Below are positions 770 through 63,850 of a DNA stretch of 64,000 nt, in pieces; the stretch's first letter is position 1, and every line of letters begins with the position of its first letter. The stretch spans positions 1,240,001 through 1,304,000 of the forward strand of contig JBAIAA010000315.1 of the NCBI GenBank assembly GCA_037893245.1. The letters run 5' to 3'. The translations under genes were made by a program, and so were the position numbers. Below the pieces are notes generated by a model. That model was not told where the DNA came from, ran no database searches, and worked only from the letters and a program-made list of their open reading frames with translations. Source of the stretch: Crossaster papposus. Taxonomy: Eukaryota; Echinodermata; Asteroidea; Velatida; Solasteridae.

Positions 770-1063
770 GAAGTGTTTCAGAGAAGAGCGAGACAAATTC
801 ACTCGCGCCATTGGCGTTCTCCGCGTAAACCTCGATCTCATAGACAGTGGCGGGATGCAAATCAGTCAGCGTGTACTCGGTGACGCCATCGAGTCTGACG
901 CTTCGCATGCTGAGAACGGCCATGGACAGAACATCGCGGTGATTGACGTAGAACCACTGAGGGTTCATTCCTCCGTCGTTCCCAGGGATCCATGTGATTG
1001 TTAGGGAGTCATGTGACGTTCGGCTCTGATCGATCGACACTCGTTGAGGCGGAGATGGCTTAG
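770..1063 (-). CDS. Gene A exon 28: fibronectin type III domain 2
   Basis: 98 codons: KPSPPQRVSIDQSRTSHDS, LTITWIPGNDGG, YTLTDLHPATVYEIEVYAEN. Close sister of exon 26. Acceptor attaccatag at 1064, donor CTTC|GTAAGT at 769. In gene B the matching exon is followed by linker and transmembrane exons, so those of gene A should lie just left of the window. Confidence 0.9.
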
Positions 1064-4000
1064 CTATGGTAATAAAACAATAAATTATGCAACAATTGTG
1101 CATGTCACATCATTTCATGCTGTTAATTCTTTTAAGTTGTCCTTTTAAGTTATCAGATAGCATTTTCACTAGTGTATTATGTAATCAAAGTGTTATTGTC
1201 GATATAGGCTAACTGAGTGAATGGTCACTTGGAATTGTTTCTTAGATTGACTAAAGTAGTTAGGCCCATAGAGATTAGAGGAATAAGATAATCTTTCTTC
1301 TATGTTAGGCCTAACATCTGAGAATCAAGGTTATTTTGTTGACCATTGTGAAACAAAATAAACTGGTAGACTGTATCCTTCAAGGTCGGTATATGCAAGA
1401 AAAAACAAGCACCAAGGAAAACAAACGCTTTCCAATAAGTTATCAGTCAGTTGCCGTATCACGCGCAGAGGCCTGTTTGCCCCGTTTTTGAAAAGCTTCT
1501 TTGGCAAGCAAAATATAATAGGTATGCTTACATGGTGCAGCAGTAGTTGAACTAACTGGCGACATTGTAGTTGTAACTTCAGCAGGTGAAGCCGTAGCAG
1601 GAGTTATACTCGGTGAGGTAGTTGTTGAACCGATACGAACTGGTGGTGTAGTTGTTTTAACTAGTGGCGAAGTAGTTGTTACTACTGGTGGCGGGGTAGT
1701 TGCTACAATTGGCGGCGGGGTAGTTGATACAATTGGCGGCGGGGTAGTTGCTACAATTGGCGGCGGGGTAGTTGCTACAATTGGCGGCGGGGTAGTTGCT
1801 ACATTTGGCGGCGGGGTAGTTGCTACAATTGGCGGCGGGGTAGTTGCTACATTTGGCGGCGGGGTAGTTGCTACAATTGGCGGCGGGGTAGTTGCTACAA
1901 TTGGCGGCGGGGTAGTTGCTACAATTGGCGGCGGGGTAGTTGCTACATATGGCGGCGGGGTAGTTGGTACAATTGGCGGCGGGGTAGTTGTTACAATTGG
2001 CGGCGGGGTAGTTGCTACAATTGGCGGCGGGGTAGTTGCTACAATTGGCGGCGGGGTAGTTGCTACAATTGGCGGCGGGGTAGTTGTTACAATTGGCGGC
2101 GGGGTAGTTGTTACAATTGGCGGCTGAGTTGTTAAGTCCATCAGAGAATGGTATGTTGTGGTTTCTTCGACCTTGCTGGTTGGCAATGATGTTGTAGCGG
2201 TCTCTAGTTGGTATAATGGAAAAGAAATAATAAAATAATTCTGAAACAACACCTGCAACAGATGCTAAATGCACCGAGAGTCTCACATTCTGTGGAGATT
2301 CCTGCTTCAGACAATACGTTTTCAAACTTTAGGAATATCTTTAAAACGTTGCACTTTCAAAAGATTGAAAGAACTAGTCTTAATTAGAATACTACCCACC
2401 ACACTTACGAAGTGTTCTAGAGAGGAGTGGGACAGGTTCACTGGCACCAATGGCATTCTCTGCGTAAACCTCGATCTCATACACAGTGTAGGGATGCAAA
2501 TTGCGCAGTGTGTACTCGGTGACGCCATCGAGTCTGTCACTCCGGTTGAAGCCGGTCATGGCTAGAAAAACGCGATAATTGACGTAGAACCATTGGGGGG
2601 TCCCTCCGTCGTTCCCAGGGATCCATGTGATTGTAATGGAGTCGTGTGACATTCGGCTCTGATCGATCAACACTTGTTGAGGTCGCGATGGCTTAGCTGT
2701 GGTAAAATAAGAACGAGCAAAATAATGTGCAGGAGACATAATAATAATACCGGGGGTAAGCGGAGCATTTGAGGCATCCAAAAGTCCAAACAAAAAGGGA
2801 TGATTTTATTACGGGTCAGTCGTTGTTTGCCATCCCTGGCATAAAACCTGGATACGCTACTCCGGACGGCAATCACGAAAGAAAACCGAAGAACTACATA
2901 TGAACTACATGTACTTCCCGACGCTGGTTGAAAACAATTGCCGTTTTTCTTGCTTTTTCCAAAATCCATGATTGTCAAACTTCTAACACTAACAGGGCAG
3001 TTAAACGATATTTACTATAAAATACAACCCCCCAAATCTACCCATTCATAATAATTCAAGCGATTATCAATGGCGTATCTAATTACCTTTACACCCCCCT
3101 ATTAATGATAAATCAAGCAATTACCAATGGTGTATCTTACGGTACCTCTACATCCACCTATTAATGATAATTCATGCAATTACCAATGGTGTATCCTACC
3201 TTTACATCCACCCATTCCTGATAATTCAAGCAATTACCAATGGTGTATCTAATTACCTTTACACCCCCCTATTAAGGATAAATCAAGCAATTACCAATGG
3301 TGTATCTATTACCTTTAAAAGCAAACTGTATCTATACTTACATGGTGCTGCAGACGTTGAAGCCATAGGCGTAGAAGCCATTGTGCTTCGTAAGGTCGTT
3401 GTTGAGCTAGCGTCAACTGGTGGCGCAGTAGTCGAGTCCATCAGACCAGCACGAGTTGTTGTTGTAGCGACAACTGTAGTTAATATAAAAGAGAGAACAA
3501 AAACAACGCGATGCTATACACCTGCGACAGATGCTAACTCATGCACCGACAGTCTGCCATCTGTAGTTTCTTTGGTACTTTGTTTCTAAAAGGCTCATCT
3601 ATGGCTCATCTATGTAGCACCTATAGACTGAAGGGCAGCTAAACCTCCTGATAGGAAATGCTATTCGTCTGTGGATTAGGAACACCTTTGCTCAATTCTT
3701 CGAATCAGCGACAGAGATTCCAATAGCAAGAATGAGACGGAGGGAACCCCCTCCTTTGTGGCGATTGTGCTTGCAGAATGTTGTGGTTTCTCAGGAATCC
3801 TTTTTAGGTAACAATAGTCTAGAGAGTGTATAGGTATGGGGGACCAAGGGGGTAGTCCCTCTGTCTCGTATTGTGCTGGGTAGAGATTCTTCTCTAACAA
3901 AGTCTCCCTGCTAGAAGGCCCGGTTTCGTCCTTTACAGATACTGCGGGGAGACCTCAATTATTATATTCTCATTAGAGTCAACATGGCTGCCTCTTTATA

Positions 4001-7000
4001 ATTGACTGTATTATGATTTTCTTCAGATATTTACTTATAATGAATATATTTTTTAAACAGGTCCACCTTATTTGACGTATTTGTCAGACTTGTCAACGCA
4101 ATTAAATCAATATGGATAATTTAATTCACTAATACTACTTACATCAAACTTTAAATTCTATCAAATTACACATTACAAAAATAGATGTAGGCCTACTTTT
4201 GTTTACAAAAATTACACTTAATGTTGTTGTTTGCAAGAATTACAAAAAAATTAAAAATACTCTTGTTTAAGATAATTACACTTCATGTAAGTGGTCCGAT
4301 GTTTTTTTATGTGCACTATACACTAACTCACACTATAGTTTCTTCTTTTTCCCCCTGTTTTTTTTACAATACTTGGCGAATTGCAAACTTAAACTTTTTA
4401 TATTTCACAAAACCAAACAACATTTATTCAGTAAATTGCTTAACATTTCACGATTTAACACAAATAATTAACAAATTAATCGCTTCATCTTTGTACCAGA
4501 TGATGAATTTTGTTAGTGGCTATACATCGTACAATAGACTGTTACAATATTCTCACCTCCAGGAATCAATTGAATTCTCAACGTGTCTACCATGCCGATG
4601 CCATTCCCACTGTTACAAGAGTACTGGCCGTAGTCTTCCTCACCAGTCACTCGGGTTATGCGCAAGATGCTCCTCACTGTGTAACCGTACACACCATCCC
4701 CACCAACGAGTGTGTCGACCTGGGAGATTCGGTCAGGTTCCGTCTGATTGGTTAGTTGGACTTTCATTGGACCCGTCCATGTTATTATAGGTAAAGGGTT
4801 TCCTTTGGCTACACAAACCAGGAGGGCGTTTTCGCCAACGTTGGATTCGACGAGGCTGCCAGTTTCCTTGTTTATAATGGCTACTCCATCTTTGGAGATA
4901 ACAATAGAGAAAACTTGTAGTGCATGTCAGAAACTTAGTTAAATAAAATTTAAAGCTTTGCATGATGGAGACTAGACTTGGAAGGATTTGCGGTAACACC
5001 ATGTGAAAATGTCTCTTTTGAGAAGAGGTAGGGTGGTTCTGATAAGAACGGTGGTTTAAACATGTTTAAACACGATGGTTTAAACAGGTGCGGGTTCAAG
5101 CCCACCCACACCGACCGAAACGCCATTAAATCTGTTGTCAACCGCAGTTGTCTAACTCCAGGTTTCCTAAGTACCTGATTCTCTTCTTTTAATTTTGTAT
5201 TTGTAGTTTTGTACCCAAAGTGGCTTCTAGCGTTGTTCAAAAGAAAAATGCATATAAAAACAATGTATGCTTATTATTACTTAGGAGTTCACAATACCTT
5301 GGTAATATTCCATCGTACTGAATTGTACTGTTGCGATCAATATTTTACCTGCCTTGTCCCCTTAGTAAGCACTCTACCCAGTTTAACAAACTTGCAGCGT
5401 AGCTAGCTTCGTGAGGTTATCATCATGTGATAACTGCCTTCCTTAATTTCAAAAATTAATACCATTTTAACAAACTTACAGTGTACCGCAAGATTGATCT
5501 GTCCGGAGTACACTACTGGTGGTATCCCGTTGTTTCCCAAGCACCGATACGGCCCGGCCTGCTCTTTTGTAATGTTGCGTAGTGTCAGGGTGCTCGTTCC
5601 GTCGCTGTAGACAGAGGAGAGGGAGACGAGAGACCCGACCTTTTCCCAAGTGATGAAGTCAGAGGGTTTGGGGTTGGCATCTGCGCTGCAGGACAAGCTG
5701 ACGCTCGCACCCTCCTCAATAGGGTCAGACGGACTGGCAGTTGGGTCAGAAAATTCCGGAATGTCTACAAGCACAAACATATTATAACTGCCGATTAATA
5801 GGCCTACGTCAATTGTTTTGTTTTATCAGATACTTCAGTTTCCTTCAGTCGTCAATCACTTTTTTCGGCTATTAGTATTAATGGAAATCAGTAATTATAA
5901 CAAGACATTATTGTTTTAATTGTTTAATAGCTCACCCATTTTCCTAAATCATTACTATTGATAACAAGTTATTACTGGAATGGTTCTATGTCTTGCAGTT
6001 TTAATCTCGTACAAGAACCTTAGACTGATTGGGGATAAGGGTGGAATGTCGTCATAAATACACCTCTTACATTTAACATTTAGTGTGCAGCTGTCGCAGA
6101 GAGTATTACATCTTGCACTGGTTGTACAGCACATGTGCACAGCTCCATTGTCTTCCCTGGTCAGTACACCTGTCGCGAGATCTTGTCTCGTCAATTGGCC
6201 ATAGTAGTCGCCATCAGTTATCACTGCCGGAGGCTGGTTGGTCAGCTCCACGTCGTCTCTCAGCCAAGTCAGATTGGTAGCTGGGTTGCTGCTCTCGGTG
6301 GTGACACAGCTGAGGGAGACGGTAGCGCCAGCGACTAGTGTGCGCGGGCAGGCGGTTATGGTGACCATTCTGGTACAAACTGGATAAATTGCAACTTCCT
6401 TTTAGAAAGGCGTTTTTTGAGATAATATGCCTAAATGTACAAACGAGAATCTAGAGTGAAGTCGTTCTTCAGTATATCAGCAAGTAAGCTGCATTAGCCC
6501 AACTGTACAAATCACCTAAAATGGCTCCCCTCAAACGTTATCTCGCGATAAACTATATACATAGAGGAACTTACATTGGACATCTAGGGGACCAAGAGAG
6601 CTTTCTAGAGTGACGGGCCCCTCTTCCCTCTGCGCCACGCACCGGATAGTGTCTCTGTTGTAAGCTTTTGTCGGTGTAAACAGTAAGGTAGCGTTGAAAG
6701 TGTAGCGATAGTCTTGCAATACTGAAGAAGATGTGTCACTGGTCAAAGGGTCATTTCCGTTGAACCAATGCAACGACCAGTCAGATGGAAAGCCCATTGC
6801 CGCTCGGCATTGCAGGTAGATCCAGGTATTCTCAGTCATTGACGGGCTGCCGGTGATTACCGGTAAATCTGGTGGCCCTAAATACAAAAGGAAAACAAAA
6901 GTGTGGTTATCCAAATCATCCTTAACCATCGCCGTGTTTTTGGCCCAAATATGTCGAATGTAGACGGCCTGGGGGGCAAGGGCCGGTTTAAAGGTTGTTA

Positions 7001-10000
7001 GAGGCCCTGAGCACATGCAACACAAAAGCGTAAACGAATACATGTATCTGCAAAAATCATGTCAGTATGTTTACGTCATTTTCCCTTGAATGTGGAAGGT
7101 CTTATGGATGGCCAAGACTTCGTTGACGACAATGTAATTTAAATGACAGTGCAAGTAATGCTAGTGCTAGGGATGACTATAGATTTTAAGAATTTCTTTA
7201 CTTTTTAAATAACTGTTCTTTCTTTCTTAATTACCGTTAACACTAAGTGTAGTTGCTACAAACGACAAAGGTTGTTGCGACTCGTCCGTGCTAGCTACAC
7301 ACTTCACCTCCTGTCTGTGATTGGTTCTGTTAGCAGTGAACGTCCACGTGTCGGTGGTGTTGACCAATCCGTCACCTCCTCCAGTGGACGGGCTTTTGGT
7401 ACTTTGCAAGACACCATTGAGGATCCACTCAATCGTTGGTGCTGGTCTGGTACCCTGAATCTCACACCGAAAGGCCATCGGTGTGTCTTGGTCTACATCT
7501 ACAACACCGCCGAGTCTGGCACCGTCAGGGCCGTATAACATCATCAAAGAAGCCTTCGGTGGCACTGGAGACCAAAACAGGACACGATGACTTGGAAGGA
7601 TTCTAATTATATATCAAGGCTGTCAAAGTTTGGAATATTGACAATATTAATACATGAAATGGCCTCGTCCGATGGATGCGTACACTAATGTAACTACTAG
7701 TATGTTAAATTTCAAACTGGTATGTAAAAAGCAATATTTGTCCCAAATATGAGTTCCATAAGTTTGTACCTAGTATACCACAGCTCTGTAGAACTTTGTT
7801 ACTTCGTGGAGCTGTAGCCATCAAAACAGTATTCGTTTCCAGGCTCTAAACTCTCACCTTTCACGCATAGCGTGACGCTCGTACTAATTCCAGCACTGTC
7901 GTCCTCATTAACAACAGTACACAGCAACATGTGCCCGTGCTGACTCTCTACAGTCTGCACTGTAACACTGCTAGTGCGGTTGGTCCATCCGTCTACGCCC
8001 TCGGCGTCAGTGCTGTTAACAGCTGTGAGTTCCTCGCCGCCCAATAACCACGTGAAGGATGCACCTGTATCTATGTCATGTGCTTCGCATGTAAACCGAT
8101 GGTTCTCGCCTTCCACCAGGTATGCTACACCACCAGTTGAAGGGTAGCTGCCCGTTGAGTCCGATATGAAAAGGTTGGTGGGAGGCGCTACGATGAATAA
8201 TAAAATATCACAGTGGTCAAATTTAACTGATAAACACTTCCATCGACGCTCGTTGGCCACTCAAAGCTGCACTGGTTTCTGATCCCTCCATTCAAACGTA
8301 GGTAAACAACCAGCTTCAACATTTTTCTTTTGCCAAAAACAACAACAAATATAGTCGTTAAGCGACTTTCAAAAGTATAAGAACAATATTTATAAACAGA
8401 AGTGTCATAAGTTTCGACTTCATAAGGCGTCGGCCTGGTAATACATAGCGAAGATTAATTGGCTTTCAGAATTGTGTATTTGGTGATCATAACCTATGTC
8501 TCGTTACAGCACATACCAATGACGTCCAGCGTGACAGTGACTGACGGGAAAGGTAGCTGTGATTCAGGCGTGCTTGCAACGCACTTTAACAACTCGCCCT
8601 GGTCAGCTCGACTAGGGATGAACGTAAAGGTGGACGAGGTGTTGACCAAACCGTCGCCTTCTGTAACTGATGTGCTGATGGGATCTTGAAGATTATTGCC
8701 AACAAACCAGTAGATATCTACACCCGGTCTGGTACCTCGAACCACACAGGTGATATTTTGTTGGGTTCGTTCATCAACACTGACTGTAGATTGGAGCTGG
8801 TTCCCGCCAGAGTCGTACAGTGACATGCCAGACGGTACAGGAGGGACTTCAACATGAGAGGAAAAAACGAGGAAATTTAGGCCAAGATTTTGTTAAACAG
8901 ACAATTCAAACATGCGTCATCATTATGTATATAGGCCTACATACCAAAGAACAAATGTTACTGTAGGTTTTTGTATTAAATAAAACAGTTCTACAAACAG
9001 ATAGCAGGATTATGACATCTTCTTGACTAGAATTTGATATACAAATAGGGCAACGTTTTGGCCTGTTTCAGACGTCGCGCTTCTGTCGTGTCGAATGCAA
9101 ATCAACCGACATTTTTGTATTTGACACGGCGCAAGCACAACGTCTAAAACCACTTTAGCTCGGCAAATTGATGTTGGCGCGGCAGGAGAATTAAACTTGC
9201 TATAGGGTCTGCCGTGCTTAACAATTTGGCATGGGAGAAGCACGGCGCGGTTTCAAACGTCGTGCTTCTGCTGTGTACAAAATTAAAATTAATTCGACGT
9301 TGGTCCTGAACATCGGTTATAATTAGGAATGCGCATGCTCGCAGCATGTGTGCGAGTAAAGAAAACCAACAAACAAAATTGGTTTTCTTTGTCACGCTTT
9401 AAGTTGTGTTGGTCCGCCTGAGGGCTCCGTGCACAAGTCCCCCCTCGACAGCAAGAAAGGAAGGGTCAGAGGAGTCACTATTATATAAGTTCGACTGGAC
9501 TTTTGCAATTATTAAGTTTGACGTTTGAAACCACTGCCGTGCGTATGTTGTCCTAACGTCGGCGCTTAATTCATTTGCATTCGACAAGGCAGAATCACGT
9601 CGTCTGAAACAGCTATGCCTTAAAGTTGAAGCGAGAATGACAAAAACACGTTTTCGCACCCACTGGACCAACTACTGGACAAACTGGCAACAAAATTGTT
9701 GTTGGAAAGCAATGCATGTACATGTACCTTTGACGTAAAGGGTGACGCTAATGGTAATGCCAGGTACGCCATCCTCGTTGGAAGCACTGCACTGTAGTGT
9801 TTCACCGTGGTTACGTCCCAAAGCAGACACGGTAGCAATACTAGTACTGGTGGTCAGTCCATGCATGTCATCAACCGCGTGGAAGTTAAGAATATGATCA
9901 GATGTCAACTGCTGTCCGCCCAGCGTCCAGACAAATGAAGCACCTGGATTGGAGGTTGGTACCTCGCAAGTAAACTGGTGATCGACACCAGCCACTACAA

Positions 10001-34908: not shown

Positions 34909-34940
<32 letters not shown>

Positions 34941-46391: not shown

Positions 46392-46394
46392 TTA

Positions 46395-48385: not shown

Positions 48386-48589
48386 CAAATCTGCCCACTA
48401 TGAACAAAGCTTCTTGAGAACAAGCGAATATGATAAACAAGCACCAGATAGGGAAAATTCGGCACTTAATTCTGCGAACAAAGACCGTGTGGTTTTCCGG
48501 GCACTAAAGTATTAGTTTTTCACTTGTGTTTCCTCAAATCCAGGTATTCAATGCAGTAGATATACGTCACCATGCACGGACTTGGGCTG

Positions 48590-49885: not shown

Positions 49886-50214
49886 ATGACCTTTAACCAA
49901 ACCATTATTTATTACATTCTTTATATAGTGAAGCCACTTTTTTTGCATTCACACGCCTCCGGTTGAGTCAAACCCATTGCAGACCGGAACAATATTTACT
50001 CTAAGATGCAACAATTTCTCCAACACCAGCTTCTCAAGCAAAGGAAGTGACGTTTTCTTCTTTTTCTGAAAGAAAAACAAAATCAAATTCACCTGTGGCT
50101 TTAGTAAAACGAATGATTGAATGGGGAGATCATTTTGTTTACTCAAACTGCATTGGTCAAATACAAAGAAGAAAACAAGAAATCACTCAAAGTCACATTG
50201 GGCCGAATTATAGT

Positions 50215-50605: not shown

Positions 50606-50811
50606 GGAATGCTTTTGTTAACAGTTCATCTGAATAGCTAGTGACTTGACTTAAGCCTGAAAGCTTGTGATTGACTTGCAGGGACTTGAATACAACTCGC
50701 AAAGTAGTGCTCTCCCAGTTATTTTGTCCCTAAAATAATCGCACTAAGCAATAAAAGAGAAGCAAACGTACAGCAGATAACATACAATGCCTGTAAGCGT
50801 TAGATCTTAAA

Positions 50812-50940
50812 AGGTAGTATACACCATTTGCCGATATCGACAATTTTTACTACCAAATTATTAGGAAATAATTAATATATTAATTATTTGAAAGTAACTA
50901 ATGATTGTAGGCCTCCAGCAAAATTAGCCACGTTATTATT
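50812..50940 (+). repeat. Partial MITE (left half), same family
   Basis: aaggtagtatacaccatttg followed by tatttgaaagtaactaatga and tgtaggcctccagcaaaatt, then the similarity ends. Confidence 0.6.
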
Positions 50941-51349
50941 TTCCAGGTATCTCACCAAAGTCGTTAAATTCCACTGTCTCTGTGACAACGCTGTTGTTTT
51001 CATCATCCGATTTTGCTCTACCCCTTCTGTGGAGTTTCAAACAAGATTTGTAATTATTAATTCATTCATTTATTAATTATGATAATAGAGACTGTTAAAC
51101 AATACAGTACTAACGTATGCTTATGTCCGGTCCTTGTTTGCCCAGTTGTCCAAACTTAACAAAGCAAACGAATTCAACCCCATGTAATATTCAAAGAACA
51201 TTGATTTATTCAGATTGAGCATCAATCAGCAACACGATTTTGACGCTGGCACTCGCTGATAGGCCTACATGGTCTTGTATTTTGTCTAACTCCCCTCAGT
51301 GAGTCCAGACATTTTATACAGTTTATAACGAACCCGTATTGGGGTCATA

Positions 51350-51990: not shown

Positions 51991-52226
51991 CTTCCGAGAC
52001 CGATACCAAAAATGAATGCAAATGTATGGTGTTTAAGTCATTACCAAATCTAAATACCAGAACCAGTCTATGGCCGACATATAGTGTAACAGGTCGACTT
52101 CATAAAGACAAACATTGATGGAGATAGAACAGTTTTGAGTTTAAAAAAAAAGGTCTCGAGACCGAGACCAGGACTCGAGACCTCCATCACTGGCGTCATG
52201 TGGTGTACTAGCCACGTGGAATATAC

Positions 52227-52255
52227 TTACTTTTTCTTGCCTTTGTTTGGGATAT
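52227..52255 (-). CDS. Gene B: probable last exon, short basic tail with stop
   Basis: Acceptor tccctgcag at 52256, then DIPNKGKKK and TAA at 52229-52227. The stop overlaps a perfect donor (AAAA|GTAAGT, exon end 52231), so splicing to an undetected exon is possible; that would shift to phase 2, unlike all other junctions. No polyadenylation signal was seen close downstream, and no further exon was recognised between 46400 and 52226. Confidence 0.55.
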
Positions 52256-55200
52256 CTGCAGGGAGAAAAAAACAATCAATATAAGGAAGGATTACTACAA
52301 CTTATATACAAGACTGCAACTCAAATTCGTAAGTTATCGTGCGTGGATGTAATTATAATCAAGCATAAATGATTTATATTAACTAGGCGCAGCAGAATAG
52401 TCAGGTATTTTACGAGTACCAGCCTAATTACCAGATATTAGGATGGTTTGGTAGAAATAAAGCTGCATAATACAGACACTGGACAGTAAATACTTAGGTA
52501 AAAAAAATACAAACTTTGGACCATCAGAATCTTGAATAAATTAGGCTTTTAAGAGAAAAACATTCGGTAAGTATTCGGCCAAGTACTTTCTGAGTACTTT
52601 CCAAGTACTTCTGTCACAAAACATTGATTATAAAAAAAGTATCTTTATGCATCCAAAGTCCATGTAATTTTTGTCTCTAACACTGACTTCATTGTCTGCT
52701 GTCGATATTTGCAGTTTTCTCGCAACAAACAGCTGAATATTTGGTAGTAAACAAAGAACTTGGAAAGTACTCGGAGTGACTACAACACTGGCTCGCAGTG
52801 CCGAATGACAGAACCCCCAAAAAAGTTACATTATGTAATAGAACATTACACATGCAGACATCTATATATACAGGTATTATAAGGATTTTGACACGATAGC
52901 TAATAATTTGCAACAGTTTCTAACTTGCTAAACAAAGACCGAGTAAGTCTCGTTCACAAAGGTCACGATTGAACTTCCGGCTACAGGACTCTTACGTGTG
53001 GTTGATTTTGTTTTCTATAATACTCTGTTTTTACGAAAATCTGAACTATGAAACGGTCATAAATATGGATGATAAACTCAAACTGAATTTTACAATAATA
53101 TACAAACATGCACGACTGTCTAAATTGTTGAAGAAAAGAAGAAATAAAGTGTGACCTAAGCGTACAAGTTGTAACGTGATTGGCTTATTACGGAAAGAGA
53201 AAGCCTGTCCCCTAAAATCCTTGTACTGCATGTCGGTGCGCTGACGTGTGCGAACGTCGAAATGCATTTTTTAATAGGCTACATCACTTATATCCGCGAC
53301 TCGACGATGCTTCTGCATGTAGTCTACGTTTTTGTACAAAACTAGCACGTGAACGAGAACAATGGATTGACGTACGTATGACGTTCTATCATTTGTTGTT
53401 CTCCTTTTCCTTAATTTGATATATTGTTTAAATTTTGTGAATTGAAATATAAAAAAATAAAAATATTTAAACATTTGTATTTACTTTTCAGTAAAAAGAA
53501 CAGCGTCAAAATTGAGTTTTTTAAGAAAACTACTCGCTTTACACGTTGAAGCTCCTATTTGATGTGCCCGGAAGGAAGTTCAGTTTCTCGTTAAGTCTCG
53601 TACGTTCTCGGGGTCAAATTGCACGCTCTATTATATTTTCTTACCCAATTCACGTGCTGCCCGACGTTTTCGGTAGAGTACAACAGCCACAACAACACTG
53701 ATCAGCGCAATTATAGCAAATATCACTATCAGGGCAATGAATGCCGAGTTGCCTTGCGGTTCACCTAGCCCCTCATTTACACCTTGTCCTGAAAAGAAAC
53801 AGAATTTGAAAAAAACCAAACTATTTAGGCGTTGTTTATTATAGTATGTAAAAAAGGCTGGAAACCACGTGATTTTATTGGTGGATTCCAGGCCGGAAGA
53901 CAATGTGTTTTGATCGCACTGATGAACCAAATTGTCATTATTTTTAAATGTTTTTTAATATTGTTACCTTTGACAAGCAAAATTGTTTGTTCACTTGGCA
54001 TTGTTAATGGGTACTTATTGCTAATGGGTACTAGTTCTTTTTCTTACCTGTAGGGCCTGGCTCAATGGGGGGAGTTGGTGCAACTAGAGGAGAAACAGAA
54101 AACAAAGCAGTTACGCTTAAGTGCTGATCTTTTGACCGATCAATTTGGGCAGGGGAAAACCCTCATGGTACGGGAAAAGCCATAAAATATAGTTAATACA
54201 CGACCTCAGACGCGAAATGGTTAACCAGTTCGAGCCGGAGGATGTTATGCAGGTAAAGTTTTCCCCAGATTCAAAACGGATGACGCATAAACACGCCACG
54301 AGCAAGGCCGGAAATGTCCGTCAGCAGCAAGCAAGGCCGGAAATGCGTGCGGTGCCTCCCGGTATCGGCCTGAACTTGCCTCTAATCGAGATTCGGTTTG
54401 GTTAAACTAATCCCGGCGGGATCTGCTTAACATTGTGAGTGGTGCAAATGGGCACCGCGATTTGGATTTTTTTTACGATAATTCCCATGGTCTAGTGAGA
54501 TTTGTTTTTGACCAATTTAATAGTTCTGGCTTAACAGTAATAGCCTGCATATGCATGGAGTCGCAACGTTTACAGTTCTATTTCACCATTGCACAAAGTA
54601 AATTGTACAATAATATTATATTCGTTTTTTTTCTAAATTGAGGCAGATCCCACGTGACTCAATTTCATCTTTGTCTGTGTATTCAGTCCACGAAACAGCC
54701 GTAAAATAAACTTGAAAAGCTTTATCCGTTAGTGAACCTCTGCTGTTATAAAAAGGCCTCATCTGATGTGTGCAAACATTAAGAATATTTTTAAAACATT
54801 TAAAAAATACAACTTACGAAGTGTTTCAGAGAAGAGCGAGACAGATTCACTCGCGCCATTGGCATTCTCCGCGTAAACCTCGATCTCATAGACAGTGGCG
54901 GGATGCAAATCGGTCAGCGTGTACTCGGTGACGCCATCGAGTCTGATACTTCGCACGCTGAGAACGGCCATGGACAGAACATCGCGGTGATTGACGTAGA
55001 ACCACTGAGGGCTCGTCCCTTCGTCGTTCCCAGGGATCCATGCGATTGTTAGGGAGTCATGTGACGTTCGGCTCGGATCGATCGACACTTGTTGAGGCGG
55101 AGATGGCTTAGCTGTGGTAATATAACAATAAATTATGCAACAATTGCATGTGCATGTCACATCATTTCATGCTGTTAATTCTTTTAAGTTGTCCTTTTAA

Positions 55201-58200
55201 GTTATCAGATAGCATTTTCACTAGTGTATTATGTAATCAAAGTGTTATTGTCGATATAGGCTAACTGAGTGAATGGTCACTTGGAATTGTTTCTTAGATT
55301 GACTAAAGTAGTTAGGCCCATAGAGATTAGAGGAATAAGATAACCTTTATTCTATGTTAGGCCTAACATCTGAGAATCAAGGGGATTTTGTTGACCATTG
55401 TGAAACAAAATAAAGTGGTAAATTGTATCTTTCAAGGTCGGTAATGCAAGAACAAAAAAGTACCACGAAAAACAAACGCTTTCCAATAAGTCACCAGTCA
55501 GTTGCCGTGTCACGCGCAGAGGCCTGATAATAGGTATGCTTACATGGTGAAGCAGTAGTTGAACTAACTGGCAACATTGTAGTTGTAACTTCAGCAGGCG
55601 AAGCCGTAGCAGGAGTTGTACTCGGTGAGGTAGTTGTTGAACCGATTCGAACTGGTGGTGTAGTTGTTTTAACTAGTGGCGGAGTTGTTGCTACAACTGG
55701 TGGCGAAGTTGTTGCTACAACTGGTGGCGGGGTAGTTGCTACAATTGGCGGCGGGGTAGTTGCTACAATTGGCGGCGGGGTAGTTGCTACAATTGGCGGG
55801 GTAGTTGTTACAATTGGCGGCGGGGTAGTTGTTACAATTGGCGGCACGGTAGTTGCTACAATTGGCGGTGGGGTAGTTGATATAAAAGAGAGAACAAAAA
55901 CAACACGATACTATACACCTGCGACAGATGCTAACTTATGCACCGACAGTCCGTCATCTGTAGTTTCTTTGGTACTTTGTTTCTAAAAGGCTCATCTATG
56001 GCTCATCTATGTAGCACCTATAGACTGAAGGGCAGCTAAACCTCCTGATAGGAAATGCCATTCGTCTGTGGATTAGGATTGCCTTTGCTCAATTCTTCGA
56101 ATCAGCGACAGAGATTCCAATAATAAGCAAGAATGAGACGGAGGGAACCCCCTCCTTTGTGGCGATTGTGCTTGCAGAATATTGTGGTTTCTCAGAAATC
56201 CTTTTTAGGTAACAATAGTCTAGAGAGTGTAACGGGTATGGGGGACCAAGGGGGGAGTCCCTCGGTCTCGTATTGTGCTGGTATAGATTCCTCTCTAAAA
56301 CGTCTCCTAGCTAGACGACCCGGTTGCGTCCTTTACAGATACTGCGGGATGTACTGATGTCGATGTCAATTTCTCTTTTCCTTTTCATTCGAGTACCTCA
56401 ATTATTATCTACATGGCTGCCTCTTAATTGACTGTATTATGATTTTCTTCAGATATTTACTCATAATGAATATATTTTTAAACAGGTCTACCTGATGTGT
56501 GATATTTGTCAGACTTGTCAACGCAATTAAATCAATATGGAGAATTTATTTCACTAATACTACTTACATCAAACTTTAAATTCTATCAAATTACACATTA
56601 CAACAATAGACGTAGGCCTACTTTTGTTTACACAAATTACACTTAATGTTGTTGTTTGCAAGAATTACACATTATTACAAAAAATTGAAAAATACTCCTG
56701 TTTAAGATAATTACCCTTCATGTAAGTGGTCCGATGGTTTTTTATGTGCACTATACACTAACTCACACTATAGTTTTTTCTTTTTTCCTCTGTTTTTTTT
56801 ACAATACTTGGCGAATTGCAAACTTAAACTTTTTTATATTTCACAAAACCAAACAACATTTATTCAGTAAATTGCTTAACATTTCACGATTTAACACAAA
56901 TAATCGACAAATTAATCGCTCCATCTTTGTACCAGAAGATGAATTTTTCTTTAGTGGCTATACATCGTACAATAGACTGTTACAATATGCTCACCTCCAC
57001 GAGTCAGTTGAATTATCAACGTGTCTACCATGCCGATGCCATTCCCACTGTTACAAGAGTACTGTCCGTAGTCTCCCTCACCAGTTACTTGGGTTATGCG
57101 CAAGATGCTCCTCATTGTGTAACCGTACACACCATCCCCATCATCGAGTGTGTCGACCTGGGAGATTCGGTCAGGTTCTGTCTGATTGGTTAGTTGGAAG
57201 TTCGTTGGACCCGTCCATGCTATTATAGGGAAAGGGTTTCCTTTAGCTACACAAACCAGGAGGGCGTTTTCGCCAACGTTGGATTCGACGAGGCTGCCAG
57301 TTTCCTTGTTTATGATGGTTACTCCATCTTTAGAGATAAAATTAGAGAAAACTTGTAGTGCATGTCAGAAACTTAGTTAAATGAGATTTAAAGCTTTGCA
57401 TGGTGGAGACTAGACTTAGAAAGATTTGCGGTAACACCATGTGAAAATGTCTCTTTTGAGAAGAGGTAGGGTGGTTCTGATAAGAACGGTGGTTTAAACA
57501 TGTTTAAACACGATGGTTTAAACCGGTGCGGGTTCAAGCCCACCCACACCGACCGAAACGCCATTAAATCTGTTGTCAACCGCAGTTGTCTAACTCCAGG
57601 TTTCCTAAGTACCTGATTCTCTTCTTTTTATTTTGTATTTGTAGTTTTGTACCCAAAGTGGCTTCTAGCGTTGTTCAAAAGAAAAATGCATATAAAAACA
57701 CTGTATGCTTATTATTACTTAGGAGTTCTCACTACCTTGGTAATATTCCCTCGTACTGAATTATACTGTTGCGATCAATATGTTACCTGCCTTGTCCCCT
57801 TAGTAAGCACTTTACCCAGTTTAACAAACTTGCAGCGTAGCTAGCTTCGTAAGGTTATCATCATGTGATAACTGCCTTCCTTAATTTCAAAAATTAACGT
57901 CATGAATACCATTTTAACAAACTTACAGTGTACCGCAATATTGATCTGTCCGGAGTACACTACTGGTGGTATCCCGTTGTTTCCCAAGCACCGATACGGC
58001 CCGGCCTGCTCTTTTGTAATGTTGCGTAGTGTCAGGGTGCTCATTCCGTCGCTGTAGACAGAGGAGAGGGGGACGAGAGACCCGACCTTTTCCCATGTGA
58101 TGAAGTCAGGGGGTTTGGGGTTGGCGTCTGCGCTGCAGGACAAGCTGACGCTCTCACCCTCCTCAATAGGGTCAGACGGACTGGCAGTTGGCTCAGAAAA

Positions 58201-61200
58201 TTCCGGAATGTCTACGAACCCAAACATTGTATAACTGCCAATTAATAGGCCTATGTCAATTTATGTTTTGTTTTATCAGACACATCTGAGTTTCCTTCAG
58301 TGGTCAATCATACTTTTGTTTCGGCTATTACTATTGGAGATCAGTAATTATAACAAGACATTGTTTTAATTGTTTAATAGCTTATTTTTCCTAAGTCAGT
58401 ACTTTTGATAACAAGTTATTATTGGCATTGTTCTATGTCTTGCAGTTTTAATATCGTACAAGAACCATAGACTGAATGGGGATAAGGGTGGAATGTCGTC
58501 ATAAATACACCTCTTACATTTAACATTTAGTGTGCAGCTGTCGCAGTGAGTATCACATCTTTCACTGGTTGTACAGCACATGTGCACAGCTCCGTTGTCT
58601 GCCCTGGTCAGTACACCTGTCGCGAGATCTTGTCTCGTCAATTGGCCATGGTAGTCGCCTTCAGTTATCACTGCCGGAGGCTGATTGGTCAGCTCCACGT
58701 CGTCTCTCAGCCAAGTCAGATTGGTGGCTGGGTTGCTGCTCTCGGTGGTGACACAGCTGAGGGAGACGGTAGCGCCAGCGAATAGTGTGCGCGGGCAGGC
58801 TGTTATGATGACCGTTCTGGTACAAACTGGATAAAGTGCAACTTCCTTTTAGGAAGGCGTTTTTTTCGATAATATGCCTAAATATATTCCAATGTACAAA
58901 CGAGAATCTAGAGTGAAGTCGTTCTTCAGGATATCAGCAAGTAAGCTGCATTAGCTCAACTGTAGAAATCACCTAAAATGGCTTCCCTCAAACGTTATCT
59001 CGCGATAAACTATATACATAGAGGAACTTACATTGCACATCTAGGGGACCAAAAGAGCTTTCTAGACTGACGGACCCCTCGTCCCTCTGCGCCACGCACC
59101 GGATAGTGTCTCTGTTGTAAGCTTTTGTCATTAAGAACAGTACGATAGCGGTGAAAGTGTAGCGATTGTCTTGCGATACTGAAGAAGATGTGTAACTGGA
59201 CAAAGGGTCATTTCCGTTGAACCAATGCAACGACCAGTCAGATGGGAAGCCCAATGCCGCTCGGCATTGCAGGTGGTTCCAGATATTCTCATTCATTGAC
59301 GGGCTGCCAGTGATTACCGGTGTATCTGGTGGCCCTAAATACAAAAGGAAAACAAAAGTGTGGTTATCCTAATCATCCTTAACCATCGCCGTGTTTTTGG
59401 CCAAAATATGTCGAATGTAGGCGGCCTGGGGGGCAAGGGCCGGTTTAAAGGTAGTTATAGGCCCTGAGACTGCAAAATGTGAGATAGCACATGCAACACA
59501 AAAGCCTTGATGTGTAAACGAATATCTGCAAAAATCATGTCAGTCAGATGTTTACGTCATTTTGTGGGAGTCCCTTGAATGTGAAAGGTCGTTGGTATGC
59601 TTATCCATGACTAAGTCTTCGTTGACGACAATGTTATTTAAATGACAGTGCTAGCTAGTTCTAGGGATGACCATGGATTTAAAGAACTTCTTCACATCTG
59701 AAATAACTGTTCTTTCTTTCTTAATTACCGTTAACACTAAGTGTAATTGCTACAAACGGCAAAGGTGGTTGCGACTCGTCCGTACTGGCCACACACTTCA
59801 CATCCTGTCTGTGATTGCTCCTGTTTGGAGTGAACGTCCACGTGTCGGTGGTGTTGACCAATCCGCCACCTCCCCCAGTGGACGGGCTTTTGGTACTTTG
59901 CAAGACACCACTGAGGATCCACTCAATCGTTGGTGCTGGTCTGGTACCCTGAATCTCACACCGAAAGGCCGTCGGTGTGTCTTGGTCTACATCTACAACA
60001 CCGCCGAGTCTGGCACCGTCAGGGCCGTATAACATCATCAAAGAAGCCTTCGGTGGCACTGGAGACCAAAACAGGACACGATGACTTGGAAGGATTCAAA
60101 TTGTATATCAAGGCTGTGAAAGTTTGGAATATTGACGATATTAATAACAAATGGCCTCGTCTGATGGATGCGTACACTAATGTAACTACTAGTATGTTAA
60201 ATTTCAAACTGGTATGTAAAAAGCACAAGTAAGATGAACAATATTTGTCCAAAATATGAGTTCCATAAGTTTGTACCTAGTATACCACAGCTCTGTAGAA
60301 CTTTGTTACTTCGTGGAGCTGTAGCCATCAAAACAGTATTCGTTTCCAGGCTTTAAACTCTCACCTTTCACGTATAGTGTGACGCCCGTACTAATTCCAG
60401 CACTGTCGTCCTCATTAACAACACCACACAGCAACATGTGCCCGTGCTGACTCTCTACAATCTGCACTGTAACACTGCTAGTTCGGTTGGTCCATCCGTC
60501 TACGCTCTCGGCGTCAGTGCTGTTAACAGCTGTGAGTTCCTCGCCGCCCAATAACCACGTGAAGGATGCACCTGTATCTATGTCATGTGCTTCGCAAGTA
60601 AACCGATGGTTCTCGCCTTCCACCAGGTATGCTATACCACCAGTTGAAGGGTAGCTGCCAGTTGAGTCCGATATAAAAAGGTTGGTGAGAGGCGCTACGA
60701 AGAATAATAAAGTATAACATTTGTCAAAATTAATTAATAGCCACTTCCTTGATTATAAAAATGGTGTGAGGACTTAAGGTAGTGTTTTACAGATTGTAAT
60801 ATTTTGAAGGCTTTTATTAAGGTTTTCTTGGCTAGCCTCTCAAAGCTCCTTGGCCACTCGAGCTGTAAACAGAAAAAGTCGGCACTGGTTCCCGATTCCT
60901 CCATTCAAACATGGGAAGGGAACCAGCCTAAACAAATATTTTGCTTAAAGCCGTTTAAAGACTTTTTTAAACCAAAATGTTATCTGAAATATATTTTGTA
61001 GCCATTTTAATTTTGTTTGAAACAAGATTTAGGCCTACTAACTTCATCACTATTATAGTATTTTTCTCTACAAATGTATCCCTCTGATAAACATGGTAAT
61101 AATTATATCCTATTCGTAATTTTACAGTGGAACAAGAAGTTAACGGTTATTGCTCGTTTAGCCAATGAGCGTTAGTAAGCAGTGAAAAAGTCACTTTGAA

Positions 61201-63850
61201 CCGAATAGCGGAGGGCGACTTTGATTGTGACAGCCAATGAACTTTCAGGATTTGTATATGGGGGTCATAACCTACGTCTTGGTACATACCATTGACGTCC
61301 AGCGTGACAGCTGCAGATGGGAAAGGTGGCTGCGATCCATGTATGCTTGCCACGCACTTCAACAACTCGCCCTGGTCAGCTCGACTAGGGATGAACGTCA
61401 AGGTGGACGAGGTGTTGACCAAACCATCGCCTTCTGTAACTGATGTGCTGATGGGATCTTGAAGGTCATCGCCAACATACCAGTAGATATCCGCGCCCGG
61501 TCTAGTTCCTCGCACCACACATGTGATATTTTGTTGGGTTCCTTCATCAACACTGACTGTAGACTGAATCTGGTTCTCGCCGGAGTCGTACAGTGACATG
61601 CCAGACGGTACAGGAGGAACTACGACATTAGACAAAAAAGGAAGAACAAGGCGAGTACTTTGTTACACACAAATCAAGATTCTAAAAAAGACAACTTAAA
61701 ACGTGCGTTTATATGTAGGGCCTACATAACAAAGAACAAGTGTTGAACTGTAGGTTTTTCTTTTAATACGAAAATGAATAAAAAATTTGCTTTGAAAACA
61801 AATTAAGGAGAATGGAATTTAAAATACAAATATGGCAACTATTAAAGTTGCAGCGCAAACGAAAACACGTTGTTGGTGTTTTCGCACCAACTTGGCCAAC
61901 TGGCAACAACATTGTTGTTGGAAAGTAATTTACCTTTGACGTCAAGTGTGACGCTTATGGTAATACCAGGTACGCCATCCTCGTTGGAAGCACGACACTG
62001 CAGTGTTTCACCGTGGTTGCCTCCTAGTGCAGACACGGTAGCAATACTGGTACTGGTAGTCAGTCCATGGTCACCAACCACGTGGATATTATGGTCGGGT
62101 GTTAACTGTTGTCCGCCCAGCGTCCACACAAATGAAGCACCTGGATTAGAGGTTGGCACCTCGCAAGTAAACTGGTGATCGACACCAGCCACTACAAAAG
62201 AGGTGTTGCCAGTAGACGTGTAGTTCTTTGTCGGGTCAGACAGGATAATGGTTTCCGGAGGAGCTACAAGATTACAACGAAAACCACTACAGCATGAAAC
62301 CGCGTTCAATGCATATCTAATGTGTGCTCTACTGTATTGCAAATGATTTGGTAGCTTTTGTCGGATCTCCTCAAAACTCAACGGATAAACGAACCTGATT
62401 GTTCATATTTATGTATACGTGTGCATACGTGCGCCGATTGATTTTATTCCACGTGTTACTGTTGTAAATGTAAAGAAATGTATAAAGAGCACGGATCCAG
62501 TATTGTTGCTCAAGGGGCTACATAATTATTATCCCTGCTCATTCGGCCAAGGAAACACTCCAAAGACAATATCAGCTCCCTTGGGAGTATAACGCTCGAT
62601 GCTGCCATTTCGCCGCAAAGCAGCTAGAATCAACCACAACAACCGTCCCTGACCTCACAGTTACCAATTTACTCTTGGGTTGAAGACGCAATGGGAGACC
62701 GAATGAGTGACCAAGTGCCTTGCCCAAGAGCACGTCGCACAACATAACTCCAGGCTGGACTCGAAACCACAACCTGCAGAATTACCTGCAGACCGCAAAT
62801 TCAACACTCTAACCCACGAAGCCACGGCTCTCAAGGGCTACCATCGGACTTACCAAAGACGTCCAGTATCACTGCTTTAAATGGCAACGGCTGCTGGGAC
62901 TCTGCCGTGCTCGCCACACATCTAACCTCCTGTCGGTGATTGGCTCTGCTTACATTGAACGTCCAACTGTCACTTGTGTTGACCAATCGATAATCTTCTC
63001 CTGAGGGTGCACTGGTATTACGCCGCGACTGAACGTCGATAAACCACTCGATGGCTGTCGCTGGTCTGGTACTCCGAACGTCGCATGTAAAAGTTTGGGA
63101 AGTATCAGGTTTTACCGCGGCGATGGTCTGTAATCTTGCTCCACTTGAGTCATATATGGTAATAGAAGAAGCCTTTGGTGGAACTTAAAAAAACAACAAA
63201 AAAAACCTGAATAAATATTTTGTATTAATGCTCTGTAGGTTAATTTCCGTCTTAGGTTGATGATGACAAGTGTATTTTGTGTACGCAAATCGCCCGGCAT
63301 AACAATGCCAAAGGTCTGCAGTGCGTCATCGTCTATTTCTGTCGGTGGCGGTTACCTGACCTACAGAGTTTAGACGTAAGGGAATGTTCAGGTCAGGAAA
63401 CCAACATGCTTTGGTTACATGTACTTGTAAACGCTTGGTGGTGTATGGTTAAATAAAAAAGGCACAACTCAAGCAACCTCTAATAAAGCAATATCTAACA
63501 ATTGCTAAAAAATCAGCTACCTTTGACATCCAGAACCACACTGACACTGATGCTAGGCTGGATGTCTACATTCCACGCTCGGCAACACAGTGACTCGCCG
63601 TGGTCACGCCCAGTCACCGATACGATAGCAACACTCGTGCTGTTTATCAGCCCATTGGCATTGGTCACATTGGTGACGTAATCCGGAGAGAGTTTTCGAC
63701 TTCCCACTGTCCAGTTGAATGCAGCCTCTGGATCTATCCCCGGTACCATGCACATGAACTCGCGATCGACTCCCTCCACCAGATAAGCTATACCTTCACT
63801 GGATGGGTATACACCGGTAGAATCGGTGAACGAGATGTTTGTAGGGAAAA
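52227..63850 (-). CDS. Gene B: paralogue of gene A (5' end off window, 3' end present)
   Basis: At least 15 exons in the window: Ig types A and B for pairs 3-5, Ig 11-14, mucin exon, FN3, proline linker, transmembrane exon and tail. All junctions are phase 1 and no stop was found. It lacks the Ser/Thr stalk and first FN3 domain of gene A. The predicted C terminus is YRKRRAARELG then DIPNKGKKK and a stop: a short basic tail with no enzyme domain, suggesting an adhesion or recognition molecule rather than a catalytic receptor. MAM exons are presumably beyond 64000. Confidence 0.85.
53645..53788 (-). CDS. Gene B: transmembrane exon
   Basis: 48 codons: GQGVNEGLGEPQGN, then about 25 hydrophobic residues (FIALIVIFAIIALISVVVAV), then the stop-transfer YRKRRAARELG. 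This orients the Ig/FN3 part outside the cell. Acceptor gtttcttttcag at 53789, donor TTGG|GTAAGA at 53644. Confidence 0.85.
54048..54083 (-). CDS. Gene B: 12-codon proline linker exon
   Basis: Encodes APTPPIEPGPT between the FN3 and transmembrane exons. Acceptor tttcctctag at 54084, donor ACAG|GTAAGA at 54047. Length (36 nt) and phase fit both neighbours. Confidence 0.7.
54215..54410 (-). repeat. MITE-family copy shared by both gene copies (right)
   Basis: gttaaccagttcgagccgga, gttttccccagattcaaaac and agcaaggccggaaatg; same element and position as 160-350, so it predates the duplication. Confidence 0.65.
54818..55111 (-). CDS. Gene B: fibronectin type III domain
   Basis: 98 codons, counterpart of gene A exon 28: LTIAWIPGNDEG, YTLTDLHPATVYEIEVYAEN. 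Acceptor attaccacag at 55112, donor CTTC|GTAAGT at 54817. Confidence 0.9.
55544..55855 (-). CDS. Gene B: shortened mucin-like exon with repeat-derived acceptor
   Basis: 104 codons with about 7 octapeptide units of the IVATTPPP type, then TTSPSTTPATASP and TTTMLPVSSTTASP. The original acceptor is missing. The first usable one is ccaattgtag|CA at 55856, inside a repeat unit, and it preserves phase 1 (312 nt). Donor CCAT|GTAAGC at 55543. Confidence 0.65.
56995..57327 (-). CDS. Gene B: Ig domain 14
   Basis: 111 codons: VGENALLVCVAKGNPFP, IAWTGP, ILRITQVTGEGDYGQYSC. Acceptor tatctctaaag at 57328, donor GGAG|GTGAGC at 56994. Confidence 0.85.
57927..58211 (-). CDS. Gene B: Ig domain 13
   Basis: 95 codons: DPIEEGESVSLSC, ITWEKVG, EQAGPYRCLGNN. 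Six residues differ from gene A. Acceptor ggttcgtag at 58212, donor CACT|GTAAGT at 57926. Confidence 0.9.
58518..58826 (-). CDS. Gene B: cysteine-rich Ig domain 12
   Basis: 103 codons, same extra-cysteine arrangement as gene A (VHMCCTTSERCDTHCDSC). Acceptor ttatccag at 58827, donor AAAT|GTAAGA at 58517. Confidence 0.8.
59032..59334 (-). CDS. Gene B: Ig domain 11 (fast-diverging)
   Basis: 101 codons: GPPDTPVITGSPS, LQCRAALGFPSDW, LHWFNGN, IRCVAQRDEG. By my count about 26 of 303 bases differ from gene A exon 21, changing about 20 residues. Acceptor gtatttag at 59335, donor CAAT|GTAAGT at 59031. Confidence 0.85.
59729..60058 (-). CDS. Gene B: Ig domain, type B, pair 5
   Basis: 110 codons: MMLYGPDGARL, FRCEIQGTRPAP, IEWILSG, VKCVASTDESQPP. 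About nine residues differ from gene A exon 20. Acceptor gtctccag at 60059, donor AACG|GTAATT at 59728. Confidence 0.85.
60365..60694 (-). CDS. Gene B: Ig domain, type A, pair 5
   Basis: 110 codons: SDSTGSYPSTGGIAY, HRFTCEAHD, FTWLLGGEEL, LLCGVVNEDD. Acceptor cttcgtag at 60695, donor AAAG|GTGAGA at 60364. Confidence 0.85.
61290..61619 (-). CDS. Gene B: Ig domain, type B, pair 4
   Basis: 110 codons: MSLYDSGENQIQ, ITCVVRGTRPGA, IYWYVGDD, LLKCVASIHGSQP. About 15 residues differ from gene A exon 18. Acceptor atgtcgtag at 61620, donor AATG|GTATGT at 61289. Confidence 0.85.
61934..62263 (-). CDS. Gene B: Ig domain, type A, pair 4
   Basis: 110 codons: VAGVDHQFTCEVP, NPGASFVWTLGG, LQCRASNEDG. Three codons shorter than gene A in the loop after LTPDH. 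Acceptor cttgtag at 62264, donor AAAG|GTAAAT at 61933. Confidence 0.85.
62533..62849 (-). mobile_element. tRNA-derived SINE (gene B only)
   Basis: The minus strand starts near 62829 with gccgtggcttcgtgggttag (A-box-like), then tggtttcgagtcc (B-box-like) and ctcttgggcaaggcacttgg, a stretch common in animal SINEs. The corresponding gene A intron (10067-10250) lacks it. It sits within about 25 bp of the donor of exon 62854-63183. Confidence 0.7.
62854..63183 (-). CDS. Gene B: Ig domain, type B, pair 3
   Basis: 110 codons without a stop: ITIYDSSGARLQT, FTCDVRSTRPAT, IEWFIDV, VRCVASTAESQQP. Acceptor tttttaag at 63184, donor TTTG|GTAAGT at 62853. The exon has no Met, so ATG-based ORF calling misses it. 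A SINE ends only a few bases from the donor. Confidence 0.85.
63521..63850 (-). CDS. Gene B: Ig domain, type A, pair 3
   Basis: 110 codons, counterpart of 13156-13485: VEGVDREFMCMVP, AFNWTVGS, LCCRAWNVD. Arg before the second core Cys has become Cys (LCCRA), adding an unpaired cysteine. Acceptor caaatttag at 63851, donor AAAG|GTAGCT at 63520. Confidence 0.85.

Follow-up and report, generated by a model that had tools for sequence, protein, structure and literature searches.

A cluster of giant modular MAM, Ig and FN3 receptor-like genes with mosaic structure in the sea star Crossaster papposus

Predicted genes at the locus

We analysed a stretch of 64,000 nucleotides (the window) of the sea star Crossaster papposus, that is, C315:1240001-1304000 (contig JBAIAA010000315.1, here C315, of assembly GCA_037893245.1). 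The locus DNA examined extends from C315:1170001 to the contig end at 1419725. The window holds most of a very large modular gene, gene A, and the second half of a related gene B, both predicted to encode membrane proteins built of MAM, immunoglobulin (Ig), mucin-like and fibronectin type III (FN3) exons. The gene models were built from open stretches and splice-site placement in the genomic sequence alone. Genome-wide searches covered the 1.02-Gb assembly and only the best candidates were scored; all match counts given below are lower bounds.

Gene A runs on the minus strand from C315:1281473 to 1236760 and is read as 32 exons with one open frame of 2597 amino acids. An earlier note on the window had proposed a chain of 28 exons, and within the window this chain is exact, from 41473 down to 770. 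The note had placed the whole feature between 770 and 63850, and both are true exon ends, of FN3b of gene A and, as the start on the minus strand, of Ig05 of gene B. The order of exons in the window is also as proposed: signal peptide, nine MAM exons making three MAM domains, 14 Ig exons, mucin, FN3, mucin, FN3. A Pfam scan of gene A agrees with it, finding MAM in three stretches (2.5e-83), C2-set_2 (4.9e-68), Ig_3 and ig, and fn3 in two stretches. In full, gene A reads signal peptide, three MAM, 14 Ig, mucin, FN3, mucin, FN3, transmembrane segment and a tail of 52 residues. What the note called a stalk is probably the first mucin-like exon (3342..3473). As another candidate for a stalk exon, the open stretch 3954-3676 was rejected, since its translation, judged by eye, shifts frame against that of gene B.

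Exons of gene A (window positions)
41413..41473, minus strand, exon 1, signal peptide MAPIGLVTCCLALALLHLVP (identity 75% in B, 95% in C)
37835..37975, minus strand, MAM1 exon a
28194..28343, minus strand, MAM1 exon b
26298..26522, minus strand, MAM1 exon c
25499..25642, minus strand, MAM2 exon a
21768..21911, minus strand, MAM2 exon b
20128..20343, minus strand, MAM2 exon c
19015..19155, minus strand, MAM3 exon a
18259..18414, minus strand, MAM3 exon b
17916..18143, minus strand, MAM3 exon c
16596..16919, minus strand, Ig01, alpha class (GC donor AAG/GCAAGT, likewise in B and C)
15632..15961, minus strand, Ig02, beta class
14892..15218, minus strand, Ig03, alpha
13866..14195, minus strand, Ig04, beta
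13156..13485, minus strand, Ig05, alpha
10251..10580, minus strand, Ig06, beta (structure modelled)
9728..10066, minus strand, Ig07, alpha (structure modelled)
8517..8846, minus strand, Ig08, beta
7858..8187, minus strand, Ig09, alpha (no counterpart in gene C)
7235..7564, minus strand, Ig10, beta (no counterpart in gene C)
6575..6877, minus strand, Ig11 (no counterpart in gene C)
6071..6379, minus strand, Ig12, cysteine-rich (no counterpart in gene C)
5480..5764, minus strand, Ig13
4557..4889, minus strand, Ig14
3342..3473, minus strand, first mucin-like exon
2409..2696, minus strand, FN3a (Pfam)
1532..2203, minus strand, second mucin-like exon, 24-base repeat reading TTPPPIVA
770..1063, minus strand, FN3b (Pfam)
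-573 to -3240 (left of the window), minus strand, transmembrane exon and three tail exons

The Ig exons 1 to 10 fall into two alternating classes, alpha and beta. Identity to the first alpha member (Ig07) is 41-49% for the other alphas, 89% for gene B's own Ig07 and 20-28% for the betas. To the first beta member (Ig06) it is 38-55% for the other betas and 74% for gene B's own Ig06.

The earlier note took A and B for a tandem pair. Copy B is indeed present (window 50034-63850), but the cluster is not a pair: a gene C lies to the right, and three counterparts (X, Y and Z) are found on another contig, C441. Gene B runs from C315:1321821 to 1290034 on the minus strand (30 exons, open frame of 2342 amino acids) and gene C from C315:1325372 to 1350779 on the plus strand, opposite to A and B (26 exons, open frame of 1850 amino acids).

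Exons of gene B up to the FN3 (window positions)
64098-81821 (right of the window), minus strand, signal peptide, MAM exons and Ig01-04
63521..63850, minus strand, Ig05
62854..63183, minus strand, Ig06
61934..62263, minus strand, Ig07
61290..61619, minus strand, Ig08
60365..60694, minus strand, Ig09 (within the preceding intron the block shared with C gives way to that shared with A)
59729..60058, minus strand, Ig10
59032..59334, minus strand, Ig11
58518..58826, minus strand, Ig12
57927..58211, minus strand, Ig13
56995..57327, minus strand, Ig14
55544..55855, minus strand, single mucin-like exon
54818..55111, minus strand, single FN3

The three genes share the order signal peptide, MAM1-3 with three exons each, Ig exons, mucin-like exon or exons, FN3, transmembrane exon and three tail exons. 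Gene C is without Ig09-Ig12, and mucin and FN3 exons number two of each in A and one of each in B and in C. Apart from the intron that follows tail exon 1, all introns are in phase 1. Splice acceptors are AG and donors GT throughout, save for Ig01, whose donor is GC in each of the three genes. Every exon from MAM1a to the transmembrane exon has a length divisible by three, which holds for all 28 in A, all 26 in B and all 22 in C; thus exchange or loss of whole exons preserves the frame. The ratio of nonsynonymous to synonymous divergence (dN/dS) among A, B and C is 0.40-0.42 over 1779-2197 codons, a total which like the underlying table excludes the mucin exons, whose repeats are not alignable. 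As judged from these ratios, the three genes are under purifying selection overall. Given the conservation of exon order, phase and splice sites and a dN/dS of 0.40-0.42, the gene models cannot reasonably be put down to chance. That MAM and Ig parts belong to one gene in each copy, as had been proposed, is supported too, for the exons of all three genes follow one order with matching phases and splice to a single open frame.

Membrane exon and cytoplasmic tail

The note had completed gene A with the transmembrane segment of gene B. This is not needed, for a transmembrane exon belonging to gene A itself lies at -573..-716, left of the window, and the proteins of the two exons are identical across the 51 residues compared. 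The short basic tail read from it (ELGKKI-stop) turned out to be the unspliced reading of the transmembrane exon, for which the true donor is internal and in phase 1 (GG/GTAAGA). The unspliced form may be an alternative product.

Three further tail exons with AG acceptors and GT donors follow in A, B and C. They were found as small conserved blocks in the alignment of the downstream regions, where three of the four translated blocks read as exons with proper splice sites. Counted from YRKRR, the tail has 52 residues in A and B and 53 in C and is terminated by a stop in all three; the joined tail of gene A reads YRKRRAARELDIPNKPKKKRGRAKSDDDNNSVVTETVEFNDFEAEENVTSFA. Z (96%) and X (71-74%) likewise have the second tail exon. 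The tails of A, B and C contain a single tyrosine, adjacent to the membrane. Pfam detected no catalytic domain in gene A. Since the downstream exons are short and stop-terminated, the idea that the tail carries a phosphatase or kinase was rejected.

Membrane and tail exons of gene B (window positions)
53645..53788, minus strand, transmembrane exon, to the internal donor
52231..52255, minus strand, tail exon 1 (IPNKGKK)
50956..51026, minus strand, tail exon 2 (RGRAKSDDENNSVVTETVEFNDF)
50034..50065, minus strand, tail exon 3 (EKEENVTSFA-stop)

Two arrays lie in the introns of this tail. The intron between tail exons 1 and 2 holds a 27-base array which reads as ETETKAFKT repeats on the plus strand (51362-51963), and that between tail exons 2 and 3 a 12-base minisatellite (TCACAAGTCCAG; 50219-50604). 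Left of gene A, at C315:1176356-1186758, a far larger array has a reading similar to the TCACAAGTCCAG minisatellite.

A second set of genes

On contig C441 the three genes X, Y and Z lie between flanks that are mostly 92-99% identical to those on C315. The set is rearranged with its middle gene inverted, and the counterpart of gene C carries the four Ig domains missing from C. FN3 exons number two in A and Z and one in B, C and Y; none was found in X. The left flank, compared at three sampled places, is collinear but runs in opposite sense on the two contigs, C315 from 1232 to 1173 kb corresponding to C441 from 1236 to 1303 kb (mostly 92-99%, pieces down to 87%), and on the right C315 1350-1356 kb matches C441 1094-1107 kb at mostly 91-96%. 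Between position-matched copies the synonymous divergence (dS) is 0.07-0.18 and dN/dS is 0.33-0.57, as calculated over part of the X, Y and Z exons with mucin and tail exons excluded.

The C441 set is most simply read as the other haplotype. A recent large segmental duplication, which would give the animal six loci, is in our view unlikely. Such a duplication would suit the inverted middle gene and an assembly which looks haploid elsewhere: exons of RNA polymerase large subunit 2 occur on three animal contigs only, and these are the single copies expected of the three RNA polymerase enzymes. Also, two 600-base probes from more distant parts of C315 (C315:1000001, 240 kb away, and C315:500001, 740 kb away), both within repeats, had no C441 match among the matches listed. 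The flanks, however, are collinear in reverse on both sides, and for each of two probes taken from the flanks the 40 candidates that were scored included two full-length copies. There is also a precedent in Hydractinia, where very divergent Alr1 alleles are retained as separate contigs, according to PMC11067881.

Mosaic structure of the copies

By dS per exon, gene A is near C over most of the 5' part (with MAM1a as the exception), gene B is near C over Ig03-Ig08, and A is near B from Ig09 onward. The DNA including introns shows the same blocks. A and C are about 90% identical over the first 4 kb and 75-88% across Ig01-02 and the remaining MAM part. B and C share a single 4.3-kb block of 92.1% identity over Ig03-Ig08, which ends in the intron before Ig09, and from this very intron A and B share a 4.9-kb block at 91.8%. 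Further A-B blocks (89.6-93.7%) are near-contiguous to 3.7 kb past the last exon, with a gap at the extra mucin-FN3 pair of A.

The tree of MAM3c-Ig02 separates A, C, Z from B, X, Y with support 100/100, and in the approximately unbiased (AU) test the grouping B+C is rejected at a p-AU, to be taken as descriptive, of 4e-47. The tree of Ig04-Ig08 separates B, C, Y from A, X, again with support 100/100, and A+C is rejected (p-AU 3e-42, equally descriptive). Support for the Ig10-Ig12 tree (A, B, X and Z) is 72 only. The copies are mosaics of exon blocks together with their introns, the boundaries lie in introns, and trees of different partitions conflict. Whole Ig and FN3 exons are gained or lost among the copies. 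The conflicting trees and the block identities therefore point to an exchange of blocks, presumably by gene conversion or unequal crossing-over.

Relatives and known families

Among proteins of solved structure, the closest sequence to Ig06-Ig08 is SYG-2 (1.6e-9). The closest predicted folds are Roughest D1-D2 for the alpha Ig (1.1e-6) and SYG-2 D4 for the beta Ig (1.8e-4). The MAM domains are closest to an SR-C-like protein (2.8e-21) and then to MDGA1 (7.9e-20), with weak matches to the MAM domains of the kappa and mu phosphatases.

With the nephrin/SYG-2/Roughest (IRM) receptors the genes share the C2-set_2-like Ig domains, the single membrane pass, the best solved match by both sequence and fold and, in five of the six copies, an FN3 next to the membrane. 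IRM receptors, however, have no MAM or other ectodomain type and fewer Ig domains, those of the nephrin/SYG-2 type have one juxtamembrane FN3, and their tails carry tyrosine signalling motifs; here we find three MAM, 10-14 Ig, zero to two FN3 and mucin, and the tails of A, B and C have one tyrosine only. The note had stated that the architecture does not match MDGA proteins, type IIb receptor phosphatases or hemicentins, and we concur, as the domain order differs and the Pfam scan of gene A found no phosphatase, vWA or EGF domain. MDGA1/2 also combine MAM, Ig and FN3 in one protein, and MDGA1 is the second-best solved MAM match. But in MDGA proteins six Ig and FN3 precede a single C-terminal MAM, and the anchor is glycosylphosphatidylinositol (GPI), whereas here the MAMs are N-terminal and a membrane segment takes the place of the GPI anchor. 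Type IIb phosphatases (mu, kappa) have an N-terminal MAM, one Ig, four FN3, a single pass and cytoplasmic phosphatase domains. The likeness is in the N-terminal MAM followed by Ig and FN3, the single pass and the weak MAM matches; in place of phosphatase domains the genes here have a tail of 52-53 residues from three short exons. Hemicentin is a secreted protein with a vWA head, more than 40 Ig and EGF domains, in contrast to the genes here with their transmembrane exon. No described family with this domain order was found in the part of the open-access literature covered.

Two further systems resemble the locus in their genetics. The Alr genes of Hydractinia are clustered single-pass genes of the Ig superfamily, of which there are three per contig here; we know of no MAM in Alr genes. 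As given in PMC11067881, divergent alleles lie on separate scaffolds, and here one individual has two divergent sets. A complex of the Alr kind is further marked by extreme polymorphism between individuals and by alleles that decide on fusion or rejection; the genes described here are known from one individual. The CEACAM genes are much smaller. Primate CEACAMs are cell adhesion molecules with extracellular domains under repeated gene conversion, and PMC8860441, the source for this, also names N-domains; here adhesion-type genes would exchange multi-exon blocks with introns.

The Ig11-Ig12 query matched at least 90 places in the genome; 10 belong to A, B, X, Y or Z, and of the 80 others 40 are on contigs C487 and C1101. 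FN3 relatives also occur on these two contigs. The best MAM matches outside the six genes are MAM3c-like at 56-58% (C585, C264, C79 and C59). At a more distant locus on C97, search matches, and these only, to MAM (44-54%), Ig, Ig11-like and FN3 (55%) exons occur within about 42 kb. The MAM-headed genes thus seem to form one branch within a large expansion of Ig-FN3 genes. Large arrays of related Ig-FN3 exons lie on C487, C1101 and C1142; C487 and C1101 may be a haplotype pair.

Other sequence features

Positions 29469-30641 of the window, within the intron that separates MAM1 exon a of gene A from exon b, have open stretches which we take to be a remnant of a Harbinger-type transposase. Positions 32640-34215 are a degenerate copy of small-subunit ribosomal RNA (573.6 bits over the full model) flanked by inverted arms which are 77% complementary; its deletion falls in a stretch that we believe to be universally conserved. 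A part of it (33764-34063) recurs 15 kb away at 48611-48910 with 98% identity. To us this rRNA sequence reads as that of a deuterostome. The mitochondrial COX1 on contig C1841 reads best if AAA is taken as Asn, AGA as Ser, ATA as Ile and TGA as Trp, as judged by conserved COX1 residues; this corresponds to NCBI table 9, used by echinoderms but also by flatworms, and the two readings together suggest an echinoderm. Positions 23015-24186 and 45257-46396 of the window are inverted copies of a degenerate short-repeat block, about 21-22 kb apart and 91-99% identical in five pieces.

Left of the cluster, C315:1198528-1199382 and 1222477-1222899 are both matched on C441 and are presumably two partial copies of cystathionine beta-synthase-like exons. 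On the other side, 5 kb past gene C, C315:1355803-1419725 is open in all six frames for about 64 kb to the contig end; it begins as a 5-base satellite (CTGGA), this start being the part that was read. Contig C8 (>5.2 Mb) has uninterrupted COX1 and RNA polymerase beta matches, and therefore a bacterial genome is probably in the assembly.

Discussion

We suggest that the locus probably encodes a small family of giant single-pass contact receptors, similar to nephrin, SYG-2 and Roughest, which is diversified by block exchange. The receptors would consist of three N-terminal MAM domains on a rod of 10-14 Ig domains, a mucin/FN3 stalk, a membrane segment and a short non-enzymatic tail. The Ig rod would hold the MAM head off the cell, and Ig and MAM faces could bind proteins displayed by other cells, or perhaps one another. 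Exchangeable modules would then alter the binding, and variation would be kept because recognition changes. From the genomic data we infer that the proteins are made, that their binding is adhesive and that the variation is kept for its effect on recognition. The earlier note had proposed a role in adhesion or in self/non-self recognition. For adhesion, this is a fair reading in view of the nearest solved relatives; the mosaic and divergent copies lend some support to a possible part in self/non-self recognition.

Several points weigh against such receptors. Nephrin-type binding is judged from models of the single domains Ig07 and Ig06, made with alignments of eight rows at predicted local distance difference test (pLDDT) scores of 85.6 and 88.9, and numbers 2 and 8 of the beta-Ig fold matches are archaeal CARDB domains. 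The groupings put to the AU test were picked after the dS table had been seen, which makes the p values descriptive. The Ig06-Ig08 partition resolves little: A+C has a p of 0.045, B+C+Y is not rejected (p 0.12), and X goes with B and C. Gene conversion also homogenises ordinary tandem genes. For most exons dN/dS is below 1, thus diversifying selection is not proven, and for Ig11 the ratio of nonsynonymous to synonymous proportions (pN/pS) is 1.18 over six pairs, none of them significant (Fisher p 0.47-1.0). Positive selection on Ig11, the only exon so tested, is hence unsupported in spite of a dN/dS of 1.70 between A and B.

Alternatively, the products could be adhesion proteins of an ordinary structural kind whose genes evolve in concert; the exchange would then follow passively from tandem duplication, irrelevant to recognition, and the haplotype differences would be neutral. 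This is a serious competitor, to which we give somewhat less than an even chance. The purifying selection (dN/dS 0.33-0.57 for position-matched copies and 0.40-0.42 among A, B and C) is what one would expect of such proteins, and the shared blocks cover introns and the 3' flank and not exons alone. Yet the position-matched copies differ by a dS of 0.07-0.18, against 94-99% identity in the longest flank blocks, although this contrast is not sharp everywhere, with flank pieces down to 87% on one side and 91-96% beside C and X. Moreover, the copies differ in whole domains and in orientation, which is unexpected from homogenisation.

Pathogen-binding immune receptors or decoys, in which exchange and domain loss alter the surface shown to microbes as in mammalian CEACAM, appear rather unlikely to us. 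The mucin-like stalk and the SR-C-like scavenger receptor as nearest solved MAM match would fit, as would the precedent of adhesion molecules under repeated gene conversion (PMC8860441). But Ig11 lacks significant positive selection, and the shared blocks span many domains instead of one binding domain. Finally, that each copy is two genes, a MAM protein and a separate Ig-FN3 receptor, is very improbable and was rejected: Ig-FN3 relatives with no MAM match in these lower-bound searches do form large arrays, for example on C487 and C1101, but in A, B and C the sole signal-peptide exon found per copy precedes the MAMs and the MAM3c-Ig01 junction is in phase and has good splice sites, and none of the six copies separates MAM from Ig exons.

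We return to contact receptors diversified by block exchange, for which a role in allorecognition is possible. A bolder version holds that the cluster is an echinoderm locus of individual identity, where the haplotypes differ in number, order and mix of modules through block exchange in introns; almost every chromosome would then carry its own set of contact receptors. As stated, we consider this quite unlikely. The differences in length and sequence between the apparent parental chromosomes are as expected of a recognition system.

To our knowledge no gene has been assigned to the allogeneic reactions of echinoderms. Allograft rejection in a sea star and allogeneic cell reactions in sea urchins have been reported (PMC9763293). 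In summary, a modular and clustered Ig superfamily family that differs between two apparent haplotypes would supply named candidate genes for these reactions and, if our reading is true, a clear animal case of receptor diversity that arises by exchange of whole multi-exon modules between giant paralogs.

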